From: an uncultured Clostridia bacterium
Lineage (GTDB): Bacteria; Bacillota; Clostridia; Lachnospirales; CAMVHY01
Length of the DNA: 12,745 nt
Direction of reading: 5' to 3'
Assembly (NCBI GenBank): GCA_947167415.1
Contig: CAMVHY010000010.1
Span: forward strand, 1 to 12,745
How positions within the stretch are numbered: the first letter of the stretch is position 1; each line of letters starts with the position of its first letter. Below the pieces are notes generated by a model. It worked only from the letters and a program-made list of their open reading frames with translations, made no database searches and was not told the DNA's origin. Positions 676 to 12,745 of this stretch are shown here, in pieces. A program made the position numbers and the translations under genes.

Positions 676-698
676 AAAAAAATCGGAGTGTGATAGTT

Positions 699-3209
699 AT
701 GTTAAAACAAAATTTAAATGATCAATGTTTTTCGATGGCGAATATTTTTAGTTTTGCTGAAAAAGTTATTCCGGATTTTAAAAATAAATCTGAAGGTGAT
801 AAATTTTTATCTTTGTATTGCATAACTGCAAAATTATTGAGCAATCGGTTATATGATAATGAATCGACAGAAGATAAAATAAAGTGTTTATTGAGTCGTA
901 TTCCAAAAGATAAAGAAAAAGATGCGGAACAGTTAAAAAGTGCGCTTAATGATTTTGTGGAGCAAAATAAGTTTTCAGAAGATAATGATTATTATTCAGC
1001 TAAGAAAGTAAGATCTTTTTTTGATACGAATAAAAATTTATTGACGTCGATTTATGGAAATGAAAAACCGACGGATTTGCTTTTCTTCTTTGCTCAAATG
1101 CGGTCGAAAAAGATGTTTACAAATGATGATCACCGACAATTTTTTGAATGGATAAATGAAGCGACCATAGAAAACAAAACATTCGGAGCAAACAGCGATA
1201 GTTATTGGCTTGATGGTAAAGTAGTAGATAAAGACAAAATAAGCAATTCACTAAAATCAAATCTAGATAGATACTTTAACGAATATATCGGAGAGATAAA
1301 CAAGAAATGTGGCTTAAATATTAATATTTTGGAAGGCGATGAATATAAAACACGTGGATTTAAATTAGAAAAAAGAAATTACAATGAAGAATGGACGGTT
1401 AGTTATGGTAAACCTTCGATAAATAACAAAAAGAATTATAAATCTAAGGATGAATATATCTCTCTAACTCTTGATATAGATAAAATCTTAAAAGAAAAAT
1501 TTGGTTTCAAAAAAATAAACGAAATGTCAAAAGATGAACTTGGAAAATTAAATTTGAGTTATGACGAAGAGTTTATTTATTTTTTATTTGGTTGTGATTT
1601 AGGCAATGAAGTTTATTTGCAAAATAAATCACGTTTGAAACAATTTAAAGCTCCGGATGTACCATTTAAAAATATAAAACCGGAAACAATATTAAAAATC
1701 TATAATTATTTTGATGGAACACCATTAAACAAAAAGACAATAGAAGATGCTATAAAACAAGTTGACGATCCAAAAAATCTGTTTGACGCATGCGATAAAA
1801 TTGAAAAAGAAAGTAAAAAATCGTTTTGTTTAAGAAAATATAATATTGTTAATCTATATTTTGGAAAACCAGTCCAAATTGATAAAGTTTTTAAATATAT
1901 AGATCAATTAGATACAGAAAATTTGAAAAATATCGATCATGAGATAAAAGAAATGGTATTTGATTTTCTTGACAAGGCTTTAAATGATAATAACCAAAAT
2001 GTTGACGCTTTGCTTAGTAAGTTTTTGCAAACTGGAAACGATGGTGGCAATTTATTGTTTCAATATATATGTGATAGGATAAGTAAAAATGATGGCGCTC
2101 ACAAATTTGAAAATTATCTTTCTAAAATATTTGAACATTATAAGAATACAAATTATGATCTCACTAAGAAGCAAAAAGTTGGATATTTAATAATTTGTGT
2201 TTTCAATAACCAATATAATTCAAAAGCTCCTGTAGCCGATCCGAAACAATATATCAACATAATTCTTGATCTTTTTGATAATGGAAATAAGGTTGAAGTT
2301 AAAGAATTGCATGGTAACACTTCTTTAGATACGATCGATGTTACAAATCGTTTAAAAACATTTCTAGAGCTATTTATAGCTAAATATTTGGATGCGAAGA
2401 AATCTGTTTTACCTAAATCACAAGAAAATAATAAAGCAATTGCTAAAATTGATGATTATTGCTATAATTTGCGAAAAATATTCGGTGCTTTTAAAGAATC
2501 ATATGATCCGCAACTAAATAAAAATGGTTATGGTCAAGACGATATCAAATCCATTCAATCACAGCTTGAATTTTATACACGAATTTTAAATAGTTCAGTT
2601 GTTAAGGTGGAGACTAAAAACACAATTTTGAAATTAGCTAGATATTATTTGAGAACATTAGAACAATCTAATAAAGAATTTGCAGATAGCCAGTTTCAAA
2701 TTTACTTGAATGAATATCAAAACGGTACTAAAGCTAGTCGATACTCACCGGATGATAGACAAAACTTGATTTCTCGTAAAAATTTAGAATTGTCGCAAGC
2801 CATAACAGATTTAAAATTAAAAATACGAACATTAGATATAAAATCAAACGTAACAAGCTACTTTAAAGAAAATTGGACAACATGGCTCAGTTTTCTTTTG
2901 ATTGTACCAATTTTCCTTTATAATTTTAAATGGAAGCCACAATATATTTCTACAAAAACTGATTATGAGAACGATAGAGAAAAATTAGAAAGTAAGGAAA
3001 AAGAATTACAAAATTTTGATTATGTAAATACAAACAGCGGAAAAAATCATAAAGAATTGATAGATAAATTAACAAAATTTATTGATGATGAAGAGAGCAT
3101 TGTACAACGAATTGTACAACAACAGGAGCAACAACAGAATGAGATAATACCAAACAATGAAGGAGAAGAAATAGAAGAAGAAGAGGAGGATCTCGATTTA
3201 GATTTATAG
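699..3209 (+). CDS. Orphan 836-residue protein with C-terminal membrane anchor and acidic tail
   Basis: I do not recognise this protein. It is mostly charged, Lys/Asn/Asp-rich and apparently helical, with no signal peptide and no motif I can assign to an enzyme family. Residues about 726-743 (core WLSFLLIVPIFLYNF) form one hydrophobic segment flanked by Trp. It is followed by a charged stretch likely to be coiled coil (DREKLESKEKEL), a Gln-rich patch (QQQEQQQ) and an extremely acidic end (EEIEEEEEDLDLDL). This implies about 725 residues on one side of the membrane and about 90 on the other. The ATG at 699 is preferred because GGAG at 685-688 lies 10 bases upstream; an in-frame GTG at 690 is only one base from that site. 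The gene has its own consensus promoter and terminator and stands alone beside an insertion-sequence remnant. That fits an acquired accessory gene, possibly a surface, effector or host-interaction protein, but no function can be assigned. Confidence 0.85.
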   Translation: MLKQNLNDQCFSMANIFSFAEKVIPDFKNKSEGDKFLSLYCITAKLLSNRLYDNESTEDKIKCLLSRIPKDKEKDAEQLKSALNDFVEQNKFSEDNDYYSAKKVRSFFDTNKNLLTSIYGNEKPTDLLFFFAQMRSKKMFTNDDHRQFFEWINEATIENKTFGANSDSYWLDGKVVDKDKISNSLKSNLDRYFNEYIGEINKKCGLNINILEGDEYKTRGFKLEKRNYNEEWTVSYGKPSINNKKNYKSKDEYISLTLDIDKILKEKFGFKKINEMSKDELGKLNLSYDEEFIYFLFGCDLGNEVYLQNKSRLKQFKAPDVPFKNIKPETILKIYNYFDGTPLNKKTIEDAIKQVDDPKNLFDACDKIEKESKKSFCLRKYNIVNLYFGKPVQIDKVFKYIDQLDTENLKNIDHEIKEMVFDFLDKALNDNNQNVDALLSKFLQTGNDGGNLLFQYICDRISKNDGAHKFENYLSKIFEHYKNTNYDLTKKQKVGYLIICVFNNQYNSKAPVADPKQYINIILDLFDNGNKVEVKELHGNTSLDTIDVTNRLKTFLELFIAKYLDAKKSVLPKSQENNKAIAKIDDYCYNLRKIFGAFKESYDPQLNKNGYGQDDIKSIQSQLEFYTRILNSSVVKVETKNTILKLARYYLRTLEQSNKEFADSQFQIYLNEYQNGTKASRYSPDDRQNLISRKNLELSQAITDLKLKIRTLDIKSNVTSYFKENWTTWLSFLLIVPIFLYNFKWKPQYISTKTDYENDREKLESKEKELQNFDYVNTNSGKNHKELIDKLTKFIDDEESIVQRIVQQQEQQQNEIIPNNEGEEIEEEEEDLDLDL

Positions 3210-3272: not shown

Positions 3273-4370
3273 TTAATTCCGACTGAATTTTCCTGCTCTA
3301 TTTTTTCCCATAATAAAACTGTTTTTACTGAATCCAGATGAAAATCTTAAAAAATAATAAACACATATAAACATTGCTTGATTCAAACAAAAAAATGTTA
3401 CTTCCCAATCAAATAAACATATTTTTAAAGACCAAATAAAAAATAAAAACGGCGTAATTAAACTTAATTTTTTTTTCGATGCCAAAACAAAAAAAATAAT
3501 AAAAACCCAAAAACATATCTCAAGAAAAAATATTAAAACATCAAAATCACTTTTTAATAAAATTGCTAGTGAAAGAAAAAAAATAGATAAAATAAAGTTC
3601 CAATTCCAAATGTCAAAAATTTTTCCTTTGCCATCTAAAAATAATTTTCCATTAGCTTTGTTACATAAAAACTCATAATGTTTTTTTCGTAGCTCAATAT
3701 TTTTTTCTTTTTGCGCCAAAGCTTCTTTTGTCCAATATAAAATATTTGCAAACTCACCAAAAAAAGCGTACGCAATCAAAACTAAAATCAAATCAAAACT
3801 AAAATTTATGTTTAAAAAATTATTTTCAAAAGCAGCTAAAAATCCTGCAAAAAATCTCAATGGATATCCAAAACAAACGAATAAAAATACCGGGAAAATA
3901 CTCTTTTTTGCGCGCGCAATTTCATAACATACAGCAAAAAAAATAATCAGCCCAACACATAACAAAATATTTAAAGCAATATTTTTGTCAACAAAAAAAA
4001 TTACAAATAAAAATAAAATCAAACGCAAAGCTATAACAAAACTCGAAATAAAAATCGTTTTTTCACGTGTCAATCCAATATTAAAAAAAATTTTTTTTGG
4101 ATCTATATTTTTTTTATCTCGCAACTCAAAAATATCATTCAATTGAAATCTTGCCTGATAAATCAAAAAATCAAACATAAATAGCATTAAAAATAAATTA
4201 CGCCATTCTATATTTTCAAACCTAATTTTATTTACAAGCACACCATAAAAAAAACCAATAACTATTAATATCGGCTTATAAAAATCTTTTACCTTTGGAT
4301 AAATAAAATATAAAATCGCCCTAATAAAATTTATTAAATCCTGTTTTTTTATATTAACTTCTATATCCAT
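3273..4370 (-). CDS. UbiA-superfamily membrane prenyltransferase
   Basis: This is a polytopic inner-membrane protein of about 365 residues with some eight or nine hydrophobic segments. UbiA enzymes move a polyprenyl group onto an acceptor using Mg2+ bound by Asp-rich loops. Motif I is visible as ARFQLNDIFELRDKK (N78, D79, E82, D85). A later YEIARAKK followed by FGYPLRFFAGFLA (about residues 165-180) resembles the GFVLRAIAG region of decaprenyl-phosphate phosphoribosyltransferases, as does the loop FANILYWTKEALAQ...LRKKHYEF. The closest guess is therefore a phosphoribosyl-polyprenol synthase-like member; the substrate is not proven. Motif I has Glu and altered spacing where NDxxDxxxD is usual, and the second Asp motif is not obvious. 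The start at 4370 is chosen because GGAG (4377-4380) sits 6 bases upstream; the longer frame from 4382 places that site inside the gene. It lies 38 bases downstream of the broken comEC copy, suggesting an ancestral comEC-ubiA order. Confidence 0.75.
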   Translation of the reverse strand: MDIEVNIKKQDLINFIRAILYFIYPKVKDFYKPILIVIGFFYGVLVNKIRFENIEWRNLFLMLFMFDFLIYQARFQLNDIFELRDKKNIDPKKIFFNIGLTREKTIFISSFVIALRLILFLFVIFFVDKNIALNILLCVGLIIFFAVCYEIARAKKSIFPVFLFVCFGYPLRFFAGFLAAFENNFLNINFSFDLILVLIAYAFFGEFANILYWTKEALAQKEKNIELRKKHYEFLCNKANGKLFLDGKGKIFDIWNWNFILSIFFLSLAILLKSDFDVLIFFLEICFWVFIIFFVLASKKKLSLITPFLFFIWSLKICLFDWEVTFFCLNQAMFICVYYFLRFSSGFSKNSFIMGKNRAGKFSRN

Positions 4371-4376
4371 TTTTAA

Positions 4377-4380
4377 CTCC
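4377..4380 (-). promoter_or_regulatory. Shine-Dalgarno site fixing the UbiA gene start
   Basis: On the minus strand GGAG is followed by 6 bases and ATG at 4370. This favours the shorter product beginning MDIEVNIKK over the upstream ATG at 4382, which has no ribosome binding site of its own. Confidence 0.65.
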
Positions 4381-4408
4381 ATTTTATAATTTTTATTAAC
4401 TTAAACTT

Positions 4409-4545
4409 TTAGTCTTCTATCTGCCTAATAATTTTAAAACCATCATTCAAAATTTTAATTCTTACCGTTTCTGACCAGCTTTATTTATTAAATTTAAATT
4501 TAATTTCTCAATAATTTTTTTGATTGGATAAAAATAAACATTAAT
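4409..4545 (-). pseudogene. Decayed duplicate of the comEC 3' end
   Basis: The minus strand reads as a second version of the last ~48 codons of the comEC found at 5364-5511. The order is INVYFYPIKKIIEKLNLNLINKA (aligned with NNIYSHPSKEVVERLNKLNLDLINTA), a one-base frameshift, then TVRIKILNDGFKIIRQIED and a TAA stop aligned exactly with comEC's own stop. By hand, the last 66 bases match at 57 positions; five of the nine differences are silent, including TAG/TAA and CTA/TTG. The fragment has no start, lacks everything upstream in comEC, and is only 38 bases from the UbiA gene start. It lies on the far side of grpB from intact comEC, so the two comEC ends bracket grpB. It is a relic either of a partial duplication or of recombination with a diverged comEC. 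Confidence 0.9.
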
Positions 4546-4556
4546 ATTTATACATT

Positions 4557-4572
4557 CAGAATTCTTATTCTG
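4557..4572. repeat. Small inverted repeat downstream of grpB
   Basis: CAGAAT and ATTCTG form a perfect 6-bp stem with a 4-base loop. Nearby, at about 4587-4609, an imperfect hairpin (ATCAAA...TTTGAT) follows the grpB stop on the minus strand. Neither has a good T run, so neither is a convincing terminator. They lie between grpB and the comEC relic and could belong to the edge of the inserted segment. Confidence 0.35.
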
Positions 4573-4626
4573 TAACAACAACACTATCAAAAACAAACTT
4601 TGTTTGATACATAATGTGTAATTTCA

Positions 4627-5199
4627 TTAGCGAGAGTATCTATCTCCATATTTTTTGCGTGCTTTCTCGGTATATTCGCGTATAAAATCAGTTTTTGCAT
4701 CGGTATAGGCGTTTCTGTTATGTTCATATCTTTTCCATAATTCCAACTTTAATGCTTCATATTCCTTCGCAATCTGAGGATTTTCACTCAAATAATCGCG
4801 GAAATATAGTTCATCGTTATCACCAATATATCTCAGATGTATATGATAAACTTGATTTGCAAATCCCTTTTCCGTATATCCTTTATTCAATGAAATTCTA
4901 TCAGTATTAGTGGCCATTATTAAAAATCCATTTTGTTCTAAAACATAGCCTACCTTTTTCATGTTAGCACTTTCAGAAATTTCGACTAGCACATCAATAA
5001 TATTTTTAGCCCATATGTTTGGTATAGCCGTACTGCCGATATGGCTTATTCTTTCGACACGATGATCTGCCAGTAACTCTTTTATTTGTTTTTCAATCTC
5101 ATTGAAATAGCGTTTCCAATTCTTGTTGTGTTCAACTAAAAAGATGGGGAATAACTCCCATAGTTCCTTCAATGTCATTTCTGATAACTTTTTTCCCAT
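4627..5199 (-). CDS. GrpB family protein (UPF0157, nucleotidyltransferase fold)
   Basis: The product has the GrpB family hallmarks: HIGSTAIPNIWAKNIIDVLVE (Gly-Ser of the nucleotidyltransferase fold and the downstream Asp), YHIHLR in the middle, and a basic helical C-terminus with LKLELWKRYEHNRNAYTDAK. The full family length is present (about 190 residues). The enzymatic role of the family is not settled; it shares the nucleotidyltransferase fold. The ATG at 5199 is preferred because family members typically begin just before the LSEMTLxELWxLFP block; a GGAGG lies 14 bases upstream, which is rather far. An in-frame ATG at 5250 gives 17 more residues but has no ribosome binding site. Base composition differs sharply from the neighbours: two 60-base samples counted by hand gave 30% and 35% G+C, against 18% and 10% for two samples of comEC. 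With duplicated comEC ends on either side, recent acquisition is likely. Confidence 0.85.
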   Translation of the reverse strand: MGKKLSEMTLKELWELFPIFLVEHNKNWKRYFNEIEKQIKELLADHRVERISHIGSTAIPNIWAKNIIDVLVEISESANMKKVGYVLEQNGFLIMATNTDRISLNKGYTEKGFANQVYHIHLRYIGDNDELYFRDYLSENPQIAKEYEALKLELWKRYEHNRNAYTDAKTDFIREYTEKARKKYGDRYSR

Positions 5200-5363
5200 T
5201 TGTGCTTTATTATCCTCCAAAATTTGATTCGTTTTTCCCATACACACCATTATTATGACAGTTTAGTAAATTTTTCTTACTGTAGATTTTTTCATACCAA
5301 ATCACAATAAAATTTCTGTATAGTACTATTTTAGAATTTCGTAACAAAAATTAAAATCCAAAC

Positions 5364-7691
5364 CTAATCTTTTATCTGCCTAATAATTTCAAATCCATCA
5401 TTTAGAATTTTAATTCTTACCGCTCCTGATTCAGCCGTGTTTATTAAATCTAAATTTAATTTATTTAATCTCTCAACAACTTCTTTACTCGGATGCGAAT
5501 AAATATTATTTACTCCCGTGCTTACAATCGCAAACTCTGGTTTTACTTTTAATAAAAAATCTAAACTCGAAGAAGTTTTTGATCCGTGATGCGCCAATTT
5601 TAAAATATCACATTTTAAATCTAAATTATTATATTTTAAAATTTCCTGCTCAGCTTCTTTTTCTATATCTCCCGTAAATAAAATTTTTTTTCCAAGCAAA
5701 TTTAATTTTAATACTAACGACGCATTATTATTACTATTAGGCTTTGATTTCTCAAACGGATAAATACAATCCAAAATAAAATTTTTATTCGCCAAACTAT
5801 CTCCTGACCTTAAATAATTTATCTCAACATTTTTTTCTCTTGCGACATCAATTAATTTTCTATATAACTCATCTTCAAAATTTTTTTCCGACAAATAAAC
5901 TTTTCCAACTTTTTTATTTTCCAGCAATTCTATTATTCCAATCACATGATCTCCATCCGAATGCGAAACAAAAACCGCGTCAACAAAATTTTTTGCTTTA
6001 TAATCCAAAAACGGCACCAAAATATTTTTTCCCGTGTTATTTCCAATTTCCTGTGTACTTTTTCCTCCGCCATCTATTACCAAAATATTTTTGCAATCAA
6101 TTACAAAACAATCTCCTTGTCCAACATCCAACATAATTATTTCCGGATTTTTTGGCCATAAAACACAAATTAAAATCAAAACTATAAATCCAAAACTAAA
6201 TCTCAAAAAATATTTTTTCGCTCTCAAAAATTTTTCTTTAAAACTATTTAACATCAAGATTAATAAATAAACCCAAACAAAATATAAACACACAAAAAAA
6301 ATATTTATATTCCCAACTAAAATTTTTGCAAACGGCAATCTCACAAAAATTTTACATACCAGCTCAAAAAATTTTAATAAAAAAACAATCGGCCAACTTA
6401 AAAAAAACGCTAAATTTAAATTTACCAATCCAATTATTCCAATTAAAAACGCAAATAAAATTAAAAAAGCCATGTTCGGCAAAATAAATAAATTCGCAAT
6501 AAATCCATATGGCGCAAAATAAAAAAAATAAAATCCCGTGATAATATTACTTATTAACATAGCTCCAATCGACGCAGATAAATATTTTTTTAGATCAATA
6601 AATTTATTTATAAAATAATTTTCCAGTAATAATTTTATCCAGTTAAATTTTAAATTTAATAAAACCAACCCTCTTTCTATTTTTTGCGAAAAACAAGCTA
6701 TGCCAAAAACAGACCCAAACGAATATTCAAATCCCATATCAAAAATACTAAACGGATTTAAAAATAAAATTATTATTCCGGCGAATCCTAACGAAGTTAA
6801 TAAATCGCTTTCTCTATAAAATAAATTAGCAATCAAAAATAAATCAAACATAATAAAAGCTCTCATCATCGAAATGCTTTCGCCTGTCATTAATAAATAA
6901 AAAAACAAAAATAAAATTAAAATCCCGCTCGCAGTTTTTTTATCTAAAAAAAACCTCAAAATAAAATTTAATATTACAGCGACAATCGAAACATGTAATC
7001 CTGAAATCGCTAACACATGATAAATTCCTGTCGTTTTATATAATTCGCTTATATTTTCATCTAAATCCGATTTATCTCCCAAAAGCATCGCTTTTAATAT
7101 TCCCGCTTCTTTTTCATCAAAAACAAAATCATAAACGCTCGCCAATTTATTTTTTATTTGCGCCAAATAATAATAAAAATAATTTTTGCGTCCTAAATTA
7201 TTTATCTTCTTGGGAAATATCTTATATAAAATCTTTTTCGTTAAAAAATATTTTTCTTCATCAAATCCTCCGGGATTTCTTTTTTTTTGCGCCGAAATTA
7301 AATTTCCAGTTAAATTAATTTTATCTCCCGGATTTATTTCATAATCTTTTTTTATATACGCCAGCAAATAAAAATTATTTTCTAATTTAACTAACGCACG
7401 ATTATAATTTTTTACTTCCGTAATATTTTTTATTTCGCCACAAATATTTTTATTTTTCCCCGCGTCAATTTTTTCTTTATATAAAAACAAACTTATATTT
7501 CCATGCATTAAACCCAAAATAAAAACAACAAAAAAAATCAGCATGACTTTTATTCCATGTTTCAAATAAATAAAAATCAACGCTGACAAACTTATAAATA
7601 CATATAAAATAAAATTTAAAAAACCATTTGCTTGCGAAAAAATTATTCCTAGCATAAAAAATATCCAACAAAAAAATAACGGTCTCTTCAA
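5364..7691 (-). CDS. comEC: ComEC/Rec2 DNA-uptake channel
   Basis: A full-length ComEC (775 residues), the inner-membrane channel that brings single-stranded transforming DNA into the cytoplasm. Order of parts: N-terminal membrane segments with a DUF4131-type soluble loop (about residues 75-165); the Competence domain, marked by HVLAISGLHVS at 225-235; several further membrane segments to about 515; and a C-terminal metallo-beta-lactamase-like domain beginning LDVGQGDCFVID (521-532). That domain carries the metal motif HSDGDH (577-582), FTGDIEKE (672-679) and LAHHGSKTSS (699-708). All key residues look intact. The start is TTG at 7691, supported by GGAAGTGA 6 bases upstream and by the typical MKRPL opening. 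It begins 2 bases after the GerMN gene's stop, so the two are probably translationally coupled. The other competence genes (comEA, comFA) are not in the window. Its 3' end has a decayed second copy at 4409-4545. Confidence 0.95.
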   Translation of the reverse strand: MKRPLFFCWIFFMLGIIFSQANGFLNFILYVFISLSALIFIYLKHGIKVMLIFFVVFILGLMHGNISLFLYKEKIDAGKNKNICGEIKNITEVKNYNRALVKLENNFYLLAYIKKDYEINPGDKINLTGNLISAQKKRNPGGFDEEKYFLTKKILYKIFPKKINNLGRKNYFYYYLAQIKNKLASVYDFVFDEKEAGILKAMLLGDKSDLDENISELYKTTGIYHVLAISGLHVSIVAVILNFILRFFLDKKTASGILILFLFFYLLMTGESISMMRAFIMFDLFLIANLFYRESDLLTSLGFAGIIILFLNPFSIFDMGFEYSFGSVFGIACFSQKIERGLVLLNLKFNWIKLLLENYFINKFIDLKKYLSASIGAMLISNIITGFYFFYFAPYGFIANLFILPNMAFLILFAFLIGIIGLVNLNLAFFLSWPIVFLLKFFELVCKIFVRLPFAKILVGNINIFFVCLYFVWVYLLILMLNSFKEKFLRAKKYFLRFSFGFIVLILICVLWPKNPEIIMLDVGQGDCFVIDCKNILVIDGGGKSTQEIGNNTGKNILVPFLDYKAKNFVDAVFVSHSDGDHVIGIIELLENKKVGKVYLSEKNFEDELYRKLIDVAREKNVEINYLRSGDSLANKNFILDCIYPFEKSKPNSNNNASLVLKLNLLGKKILFTGDIEKEAEQEILKYNNLDLKCDILKLAHHGSKTSSSLDFLLKVKPEFAIVSTGVNNIYSHPSKEVVERLNKLNLDLINTAESGAVRIKILNDGFEIIRQIKD

Positions 7692-12296: not shown

Positions 12297-12333
12297 AAAA
12301 AGGCTGAAGAAAAATAAAGTCTTCAGTCTTTTT
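12297..12333 (+). terminator. Long hairpin terminator after pgi, bidirectional
   Basis: AAAAAGGCTGAAGA (12297-12310) pairs with TCTTCAGTCTTTTT (12320-12333) over 14 bases with a single G-T pair and a 9-base loop. It is followed by further T residues and preceded by A residues, so it should stop transcription from both strands. On the minus side it would shield pgi from readthrough out of the transposase remnant. It begins 82 bases after the pgi stop; a small CGAAA/TTTCG hairpin at 12244-12257 lies between. Confidence 0.9.
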
Positions 12334-12402
12334 CTTTTTATGTTCAAAACTCATCACTAATTAAACAGGTCGTTAATTTGATTGCTATTGGTAACATCGG
12401 GA

Positions 12403-12745
12403 TCAAAAATATCGCTCGATACTGTTGCGTTGTTTACAAAGATGTTTATCATAGTTCCAATAGGATTTACGATTTTTTTAGGTGAAACAACTTATGATCT
12501 TTAGGTTTTATTATCTGCATAAGCTCTGTCCATCAGGAGGTAATTATTATTTTTGGAATATATGAATTCAGTCAGCTTTCTTCCTTCAGGAGTATCATAA
12601 GAGCTGTCAGAAAACAAACGAAAAACCACTGGACATGAAGATGTACAACATAGGTGCAACTTCGTTGTCAGACTTCCTTTCGAACGTCTGATGCTTTGTT
12701 CCTGATTATTTTTATTCTTGTTTGCATCTGGACTCACCTTTATGC
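12403..12745 (-). pseudogene. IS5-family (IS427-like) transposase remnant, right copy
   Basis: The minus strand enters from the window edge as IKVSPDANKNKNNQEQS, then RRSKGSLTTKLHLCCTSSCP, SDSSYDTPEGRKLTEF and NNNYLLMDRAYADNKT, ending at a stop. Compared with the left copy, about 30 bases are missing after this point. The protein resumes as VVSPKK and, after a one-base shift, as NRKSYWNYDKHLCKQRNSIERYF before another stop at 12403. The blocks LTTKLH, LLMDRAYAD and RNSIERYF are the central, second-Asp and catalytic-Glu blocks of IS427-group IS5 transposases. The deletion and frameshift make it inactive. Sequence beyond 12403 towards the terminator may be more of the same element but is not readable. 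The N-terminal part lies outside the window. Confidence 0.88.

Follow-up and report, generated by a model that had tools for sequence, protein, structure and literature searches.

A comEC 3´ end repeated on both sides of grpB in a Clostridia genome, a possible scar of an insertion-duplication

A whole gene, followed by cargo and then by a second, 5´-truncated end of the same gene, is the textbook product of a single crossover with a molecule that carries the 3´ end of the gene together with the cargo. Integrative elements that use gene 3´ ends leave a related picture, in which the gene end is complete and the old end is found behind the cargo. A further route is homology-facilitated illegitimate recombination, in which one homologous and one random joint can add non-homologous DNA beside a gene. 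In E. coli, gene-end duplications of 109–950 bp were described for 14 sequenced clones and ascribed to single-crossover integration (PMC3240628).

The locus described here shares features with all three. As in single-crossover (Campbell-type) insertion-duplication, a direct repeat of a gene end surrounds the insert, with one copy whole and the other 5´-truncated, and the duplicated length of about 145 bp lies within the range given for E. coli (PMC3240628); unlike the E. coli cases, the duplication found here is old and decayed. As with integrative elements, the comEC end is complete and the old end is located behind grpB, but the locus has no integrase match above the cut-off among the genes scanned, no clear short attachment core and only one cargo gene. 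The addition of non-homologous DNA beside a gene would also agree with homology-facilitated illegitimate recombination; this process generally deletes target DNA (PMC3240628), whereas our locus shows a duplication.

The repeated comEC 3´ end

The window, i.e. the whole stretch of DNA that was analysed, is the complete contig C10 (12,745 bases, 27% GC) of a 1.37-Mb draft genome that consists of 220 contigs and is 76.62% complete. The order of genes on the minus strand is a gene with a Germane domain, comEC, grpB, a comEC 3´ stub and a gene for a 369-aa protein. The features of the locus are as follows.

5364–7691, minus strand: comEC, intact, 775 aa (PF03772, E 5.1e-53)
5364–5510, minus strand: the comEC 3´ end in its intact copy, comprising the final 48 codons and the stop (alignment)
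5251–5363, minus strand: spacer from comEC to the longest grpB reading frame (GC 0.25, over 5200–5363)
4627–5250, minus strand: grpB, probably acquired (PF04229, E 4.6e-45)
4546–4626, minus strand: spacer from grpB to the stub (GC 0.24, over 4549–4626)
4409–4545, minus strand: comEC 3´ stub, 5´-truncated pseudogene fragment with the aligned stop kept (alignment)
3273–4382, minus strand: 369-aa protein, family unproven, named UbiA in an earlier note on this DNA (11 listed homologues, no profile match)

The intact comEC also matches the NCBIfam model TIGR00361 (280.9 bits, cut-off 190.05), and its product is 56% identical to that of G001, a genome of the same family.

The last 48 codons of comEC are present twice in direct orientation, intact at 5364–5510 and broken at 4409–4545, with grpB between them. 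A local alignment of 4410–4543 with 5365–5508 scored 128, compared with a mean of 27.8 and a maximum of 43 in 300 dinucleotide shuffles; the duplication around grpB to which the earlier note had drawn attention is thus real. In a global alignment of 4409–4545 with 5364–5510, 112 of 137 sites are identical (82%), with one gap of 9 bases and one of 1 base in the stub, and the 65 bases adjoining the stop are 88% identical. Exact identity between the two copies, flanks included, extends over no more than 17 bases of AT-rich sequence. Homology extends from about codon 728 to the stop and, in a looser alignment, at most about 14 bases past it, and local alignment revealed no convincing comEC homology upstream of the stub. 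The stop codon of the broken copy, TAA, is aligned with the TAG of the intact one, as had been claimed. The stub ends 26 bases before the ATG at 4382 of the next gene and 38 bases before an in-frame ATG at 4370, and it is the latter that the previously given distance of 38 bases fits.

A search of the own genome with the stub returned the comEC end with 112 bits, the next-best match reaching 39 bits over 30 bases. The idea that the spacers are a repeat element was rejected: own-genome searches with 4383–5600, 4383–4640 and 5240–5370 gave both comEC ends and otherwise matches of at most 43 bits, and the best other spacer match (contig C67, 79% over 48 bases) is located within an unrelated coding gene. 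Insertion of a transposon or IS found no support either, with no terminal inverted repeats between the grpB flanks among 25 of the 28 inverted pairs. Promoter-like sites are about as frequent as random sequence predicts (8 found, 7.7 expected). Those resembling terminators exceed chance (3 found, 0.2 expected) and were set aside since all three are located within the reading frame of grpB.

Both ends of the contig (60–293 and 12300–12745) contain IS5-like transposase sequence, and a 78-aa reading frame at a contig end matches the NCBIfam IS5 model with 27.7 bits, under the cut-off of 110. The stretch 12300–12745 has 34 further matches in the own genome with 68–96% identity, and the genome holds many decayed repeats. 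Six of these 34 matches start at most 2 bases from the first base of a contig, and the IS5-like copies may account for the fragmented assembly. At 690–3209 the window encodes an 839-aa protein without a clear family; it has an acidic tail and, judged by eye, a membrane-like stretch. Contigs C15 and C67 of this genome encode large proteins that look similar.

The gene next to the stub (3273–4382) had been named UbiA, a name for which we found no support: searches with its product against Pfam (up to E 5) and NCBIfam (up to E 0.001) gave no match. Its 11 listed homologues have no precomputed Pfam domains, and four of them, when rescanned, gave sub-threshold Pfam matches or none. Five of the homologues are 82–96% identical, and the six more distant ones have 592–642 aa. 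The gene was found in 0 of 55 relatives at E<=0.001, and its product possibly represents a lineage-specific family.

Decay of the stub and kinship of the two copies

Judged by its alignment with the intact copy, the downstream copy is a 5´-truncated, decaying pseudogene. Stub and intact copy differ in 20 of the alignable codons, 14 of them with an altered residue and 6 silent (0.30), and the substitutions are distributed over the three codon positions as 10, 5 and 10. Read from the intact copy to the stub, 17 changes are GC-to-AT and 6 AT-to-GC (two-sided P = 0.035). For polarisation, seven comEC proteins with 43–57% identity were taken from the best 120 of 140 matches. In the resulting 18 rows the stub is odd eight times and the intact copy once, while eight rows are variable and in one both copies differ from the homologues. 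The odd rows are those in which at least six of the seven homologues agree; one of the eight stub-odd changes is a gap, and six fall on the conserved motifs HPSKE and NTA..SGA. At position 768 of the protein it is the stub that agrees with all seven homologues, and the intact copy deviates. Among the matches listed, P0001, a comEC protein with 98% identity, shares all of its final 48 residues with the intact copy. Both the base changes and the polarised rows indicate that it is the stub that decays.

Silent changes had been taken to lean towards a diverged but once functional donor rather than simple decay of a recent duplication. Close to the stop they indeed make up half of the changes (4 of 8 changed codons in the 22 codons adjoining the stop, counted by eye). 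Over all alignable codons, 6 of 20 are silent; neutral simulations, with the observed change directions as input, gave a mean silent fraction of 0.16 and reached 0.30 with P = 0.052, and the functional divergence between this comEC and that of G001 has a silent fraction of 0.33. Since 0.30 lies between the neutral and the functional value, the argument is not decisive. The observed fraction is somewhat above that of neutral decay, so that divergence of a donor in a functional state is conceivable.

The earlier note had named copies that group as recent sisters as an outcome that would speak against its reading, and this is in part what was found: the two copies group, with 82% identity at the DNA level, compared with 65% (94 of 144 sites) between the intact copy and the comEC end of G001. 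Stub and G001 are identical at 87 of 116 sites (75%), but these sites are fewer and more heavily gapped, and for this reason the two figures obtained with G001 were not compared with each other. Since the copies are 82% identical, any donor would have to be a close relative. A distant donor appears unlikely from these alignments, and the kinship would be compatible with a donor of the same genus as well as with a duplication that was purely local.

Local duplication is the main rival explanation, although we consider it rather unlikely. The comEC 3´ end would have been duplicated in tandem by slippage or unequal exchange, first or independently, and grpB would have been inserted later or would have been part of the duplicated unit, with its second copy deleted. 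Such an origin automatically yields copies that are close kin, and it would suit a genome rich in decayed repeats such as the 34 IS5-like matches. However, it needs two events, one of them exactly at the boundary of the duplication, or else a precise second loss, and the window grpB is the only one found in own-genome searches.

The grpB gene and the region behind comEC in relatives

The product of grpB is a real GrpB protein (154.1 bits with PF04229, gathering score 25.5). The composition of the gene deviates, with a GC content of 0.333 and a GC3 of about 0.30 compared with 0.234–0.317 and 0.18–0.25 for seven other window genes that were measured. Its start is possibly the ATG at 5199, resulting in 190 aa, as in the homologues P0123 and P0124. 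The distribution of grpB in the order is patchy (37 of 392 genomes including the own one, at E<=1e-20); it is absent from G001, and no second copy was found in the own genome. Taking sequence and distribution together, grpB was likely acquired.

The nearest GrpB proteins, among the best 120 of 6663 matches, are P0121 (98% identical), P0122 (99%), P0123 (87%, mosaic) and P0124 (76%); the remaining ones among those listed are 65–76% identical. P0121 comes from another dataset and shares the 207-aa frame including its N-terminal extension, a mere hint that the same arrangement may occur in another strain. P0123 resembles the window GrpB in its first part and P0124 in its last part; such variants look mosaic and could reflect recombination between alleles or chimeras of metagenome assembly. 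On an IMG/VR contig (L076, 3657–4271) a GrpB with 61% identity is encoded between phage portal-like and terminase-like genes (labels by eye), and plasmid matches were found in 202 records, all of them less than 60% identical. No comEC match was present in 20 grpB loci; the flanks are no longer than 1.5 kb in 19 of these.

An assembly artefact joining two strains is conceivable in so fragmented a draft (220 contigs, 76.62% complete); we regard it as highly improbable. At 17 bases, the longest stretch in which the copies and their flanks agree exactly is below the length of the usual assembly word, and the stub has changes at conserved residues that would be unexpected in a functional comEC. The 207-aa frame recurs in P0121, a match that covers the frame and not the junction itself.

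The search for related genomes gave 56, none of the same genus, with G001 as the one genome of the same family. A comEC match was found in 54 relatives, and 41 of these (G001 and 40 others) were used to compare the region downstream of comEC; in the 13 left out the match was weaker, incomplete or at a contig end. Among the 41, G051 offered only 189 bases downstream and was not scored for the repeat, leaving 40 scorable relatives. A comEC-end repeat was called only if its score exceeded the shuffle maximum by more than 6, and neither repeat nor stub was found in any of the 40. Three uncalled relatives (G014, G047 and G028) top the shuffle maximum by 1–2 points over 21–38 bases.

In 28 of the 41 relatives holA is located directly behind comEC, with a start at -154 to +110 bases relative to the stop codon of comEC. 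In three (G001, G004 and G028) it follows at a distance of 1.4–1.8 kb, in nine it was not found in the examined stretch, and G051 with its 189 bases was not judged. The genome of the window has holA on another contig, C15, where 259 bases separate it from the end; these 259 bases contain no comEC remnant (score 19, shuffle maximum 30). In G001, an ANT(6)-like nucleotidyltransferase gene and a DUF2992 gene occupy the 1.4 kb between comEC and holA (L034, 10341–11670); the former matches PF04439 with E 1.4e-114 and reaches 262.7 bits with NCBIfam ANT_6, for which the cut-off is 420. No remnant of a comEC end was detected there (scores of 23 and 29 with shuffle maxima of 31 and 33). The downstream side of comEC departs from the usual order in both members of the family. 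Three relatives of one genus (G032, G014 and G044; loci L009, L010 and L012) have three different genes behind comEC and no holA in their stretches; thus, the adjacency of comEC and holA is broken there too.

The earlier note had read the geometry as that of an insertion which replaced the comEC 3´ end, and this part of its reading fits; the integrative element that it proposed as one of two possible sources is unsupported, since no integrase-carrying element was found. Under that proposal the locus would be the relic of a site-specific element that targeted the comEC 3´ end, supplied a replacement end and lost everything but grpB. The complete gene end upstream with the old end behind the cargo agrees with such a relic, as do the accessory genes that follow comEC in G001 before holA. 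On the other hand, no integrase or recombinase was found above the cut-off in nine window genes searched against Pfam and five against NCBIfam (a sub-threshold Pfam match, Phage_int_SAM_5 with E 0.025, is located in the reading frame 690–3209), G001 has no remnant of a comEC end, the repeat is present in 0 of 40 scorable relatives, and the longest exact identity of the copies is 17 bases. An element of this kind is in our view improbable.

Insertion-duplication as the preferred origin

We propose, with a probability of roughly 0.5, that the locus is the scar of an insertion which duplicated the comEC 3´ end, by a single crossover or an equivalent event, and brought in grpB. A molecule on which grpB lay beside a short comEC 3´ end, and which stemmed from the species itself or a close relative, would have recombined with the resident comEC in this way. 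The upstream copy would have stayed complete because the duplicated part includes the stop codon, and grpB would have been placed behind it. The displaced, 5´-truncated comEC end downstream, having neither start nor function, would then have decayed. The proposal is supported by the stub itself, which lacks its 5´ side and terminates at the aligned stop, as a displaced gene end should. Further support comes from the repeat score far above that of shuffled sequence, the polarised and AT-ward changes, the kinship of the copies, the composition and patchy occurrence of grpB, the lack of such a repeat in the 40 scorable relatives, the position of holA on another contig and the E. coli duplications. 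Residue 768, the silent fraction and the lack of a comEC match in the 20 grpB loci count against it. The data themselves show the duplication, the truncated and decayed state of the downstream copy, its close relation to the intact one, the deviating composition of grpB and the absence of the arrangement from the relatives examined. Neither an empty site in a relative nor a donor molecule with a comEC end and grpB was found, and since no genome examined shows the empty site, the choice of mechanism rests on parsimony. We infer all three of its parts, namely the import of grpB, one event for grpB and the duplication, and a crossover as mechanism. As to the order of events, grpB could also have entered a tandem duplication that already existed.

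The same product could be generated in one event by homology-facilitated illegitimate recombination of a linear fragment, with the homologous joint in comEC and a random joint that connected the grpB side to the end of the resident comEC. Uptake of the DNA by transformation would be plausible, comEC itself being a DNA-uptake gene. We nevertheless give this route little credence: it is generally coupled to deletion, and the E. coli study attributes its own duplications to single crossovers (PMC3240628).

Altogether, the repeat is a true and rightly located observation with an ordinary explanation, most likely an insertion-duplication; it does not look like a new system, and the argument for a diverged donor is weak.

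It is quite doubtful that in the family of G001 and the window genome small accessory genes have repeatedly settled in the space behind comEC, with grpB as the case in the window genome and the ANT(6)-like and DUF2992 genes as that in G001. They would have arrived by recombination in the 3´ end of comEC, which leaves the gene unharmed, and the window would show one such event in which the old end can still be seen. No report of comEC as an insertion or attachment place was evident from titles and the opening parts of abstracts.

The locus provides a readable case of how a foreign gene may come to be stitched behind a conserved gene that stays unbroken, with a pseudogene that records the event. 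It is also a warning that a broken gene end beside cargo is no proof of an integrative element. If the 3´ side of comEC were a recurrent insertion place in this family, this would be a modest finding on gene traffic at a DNA-uptake gene.
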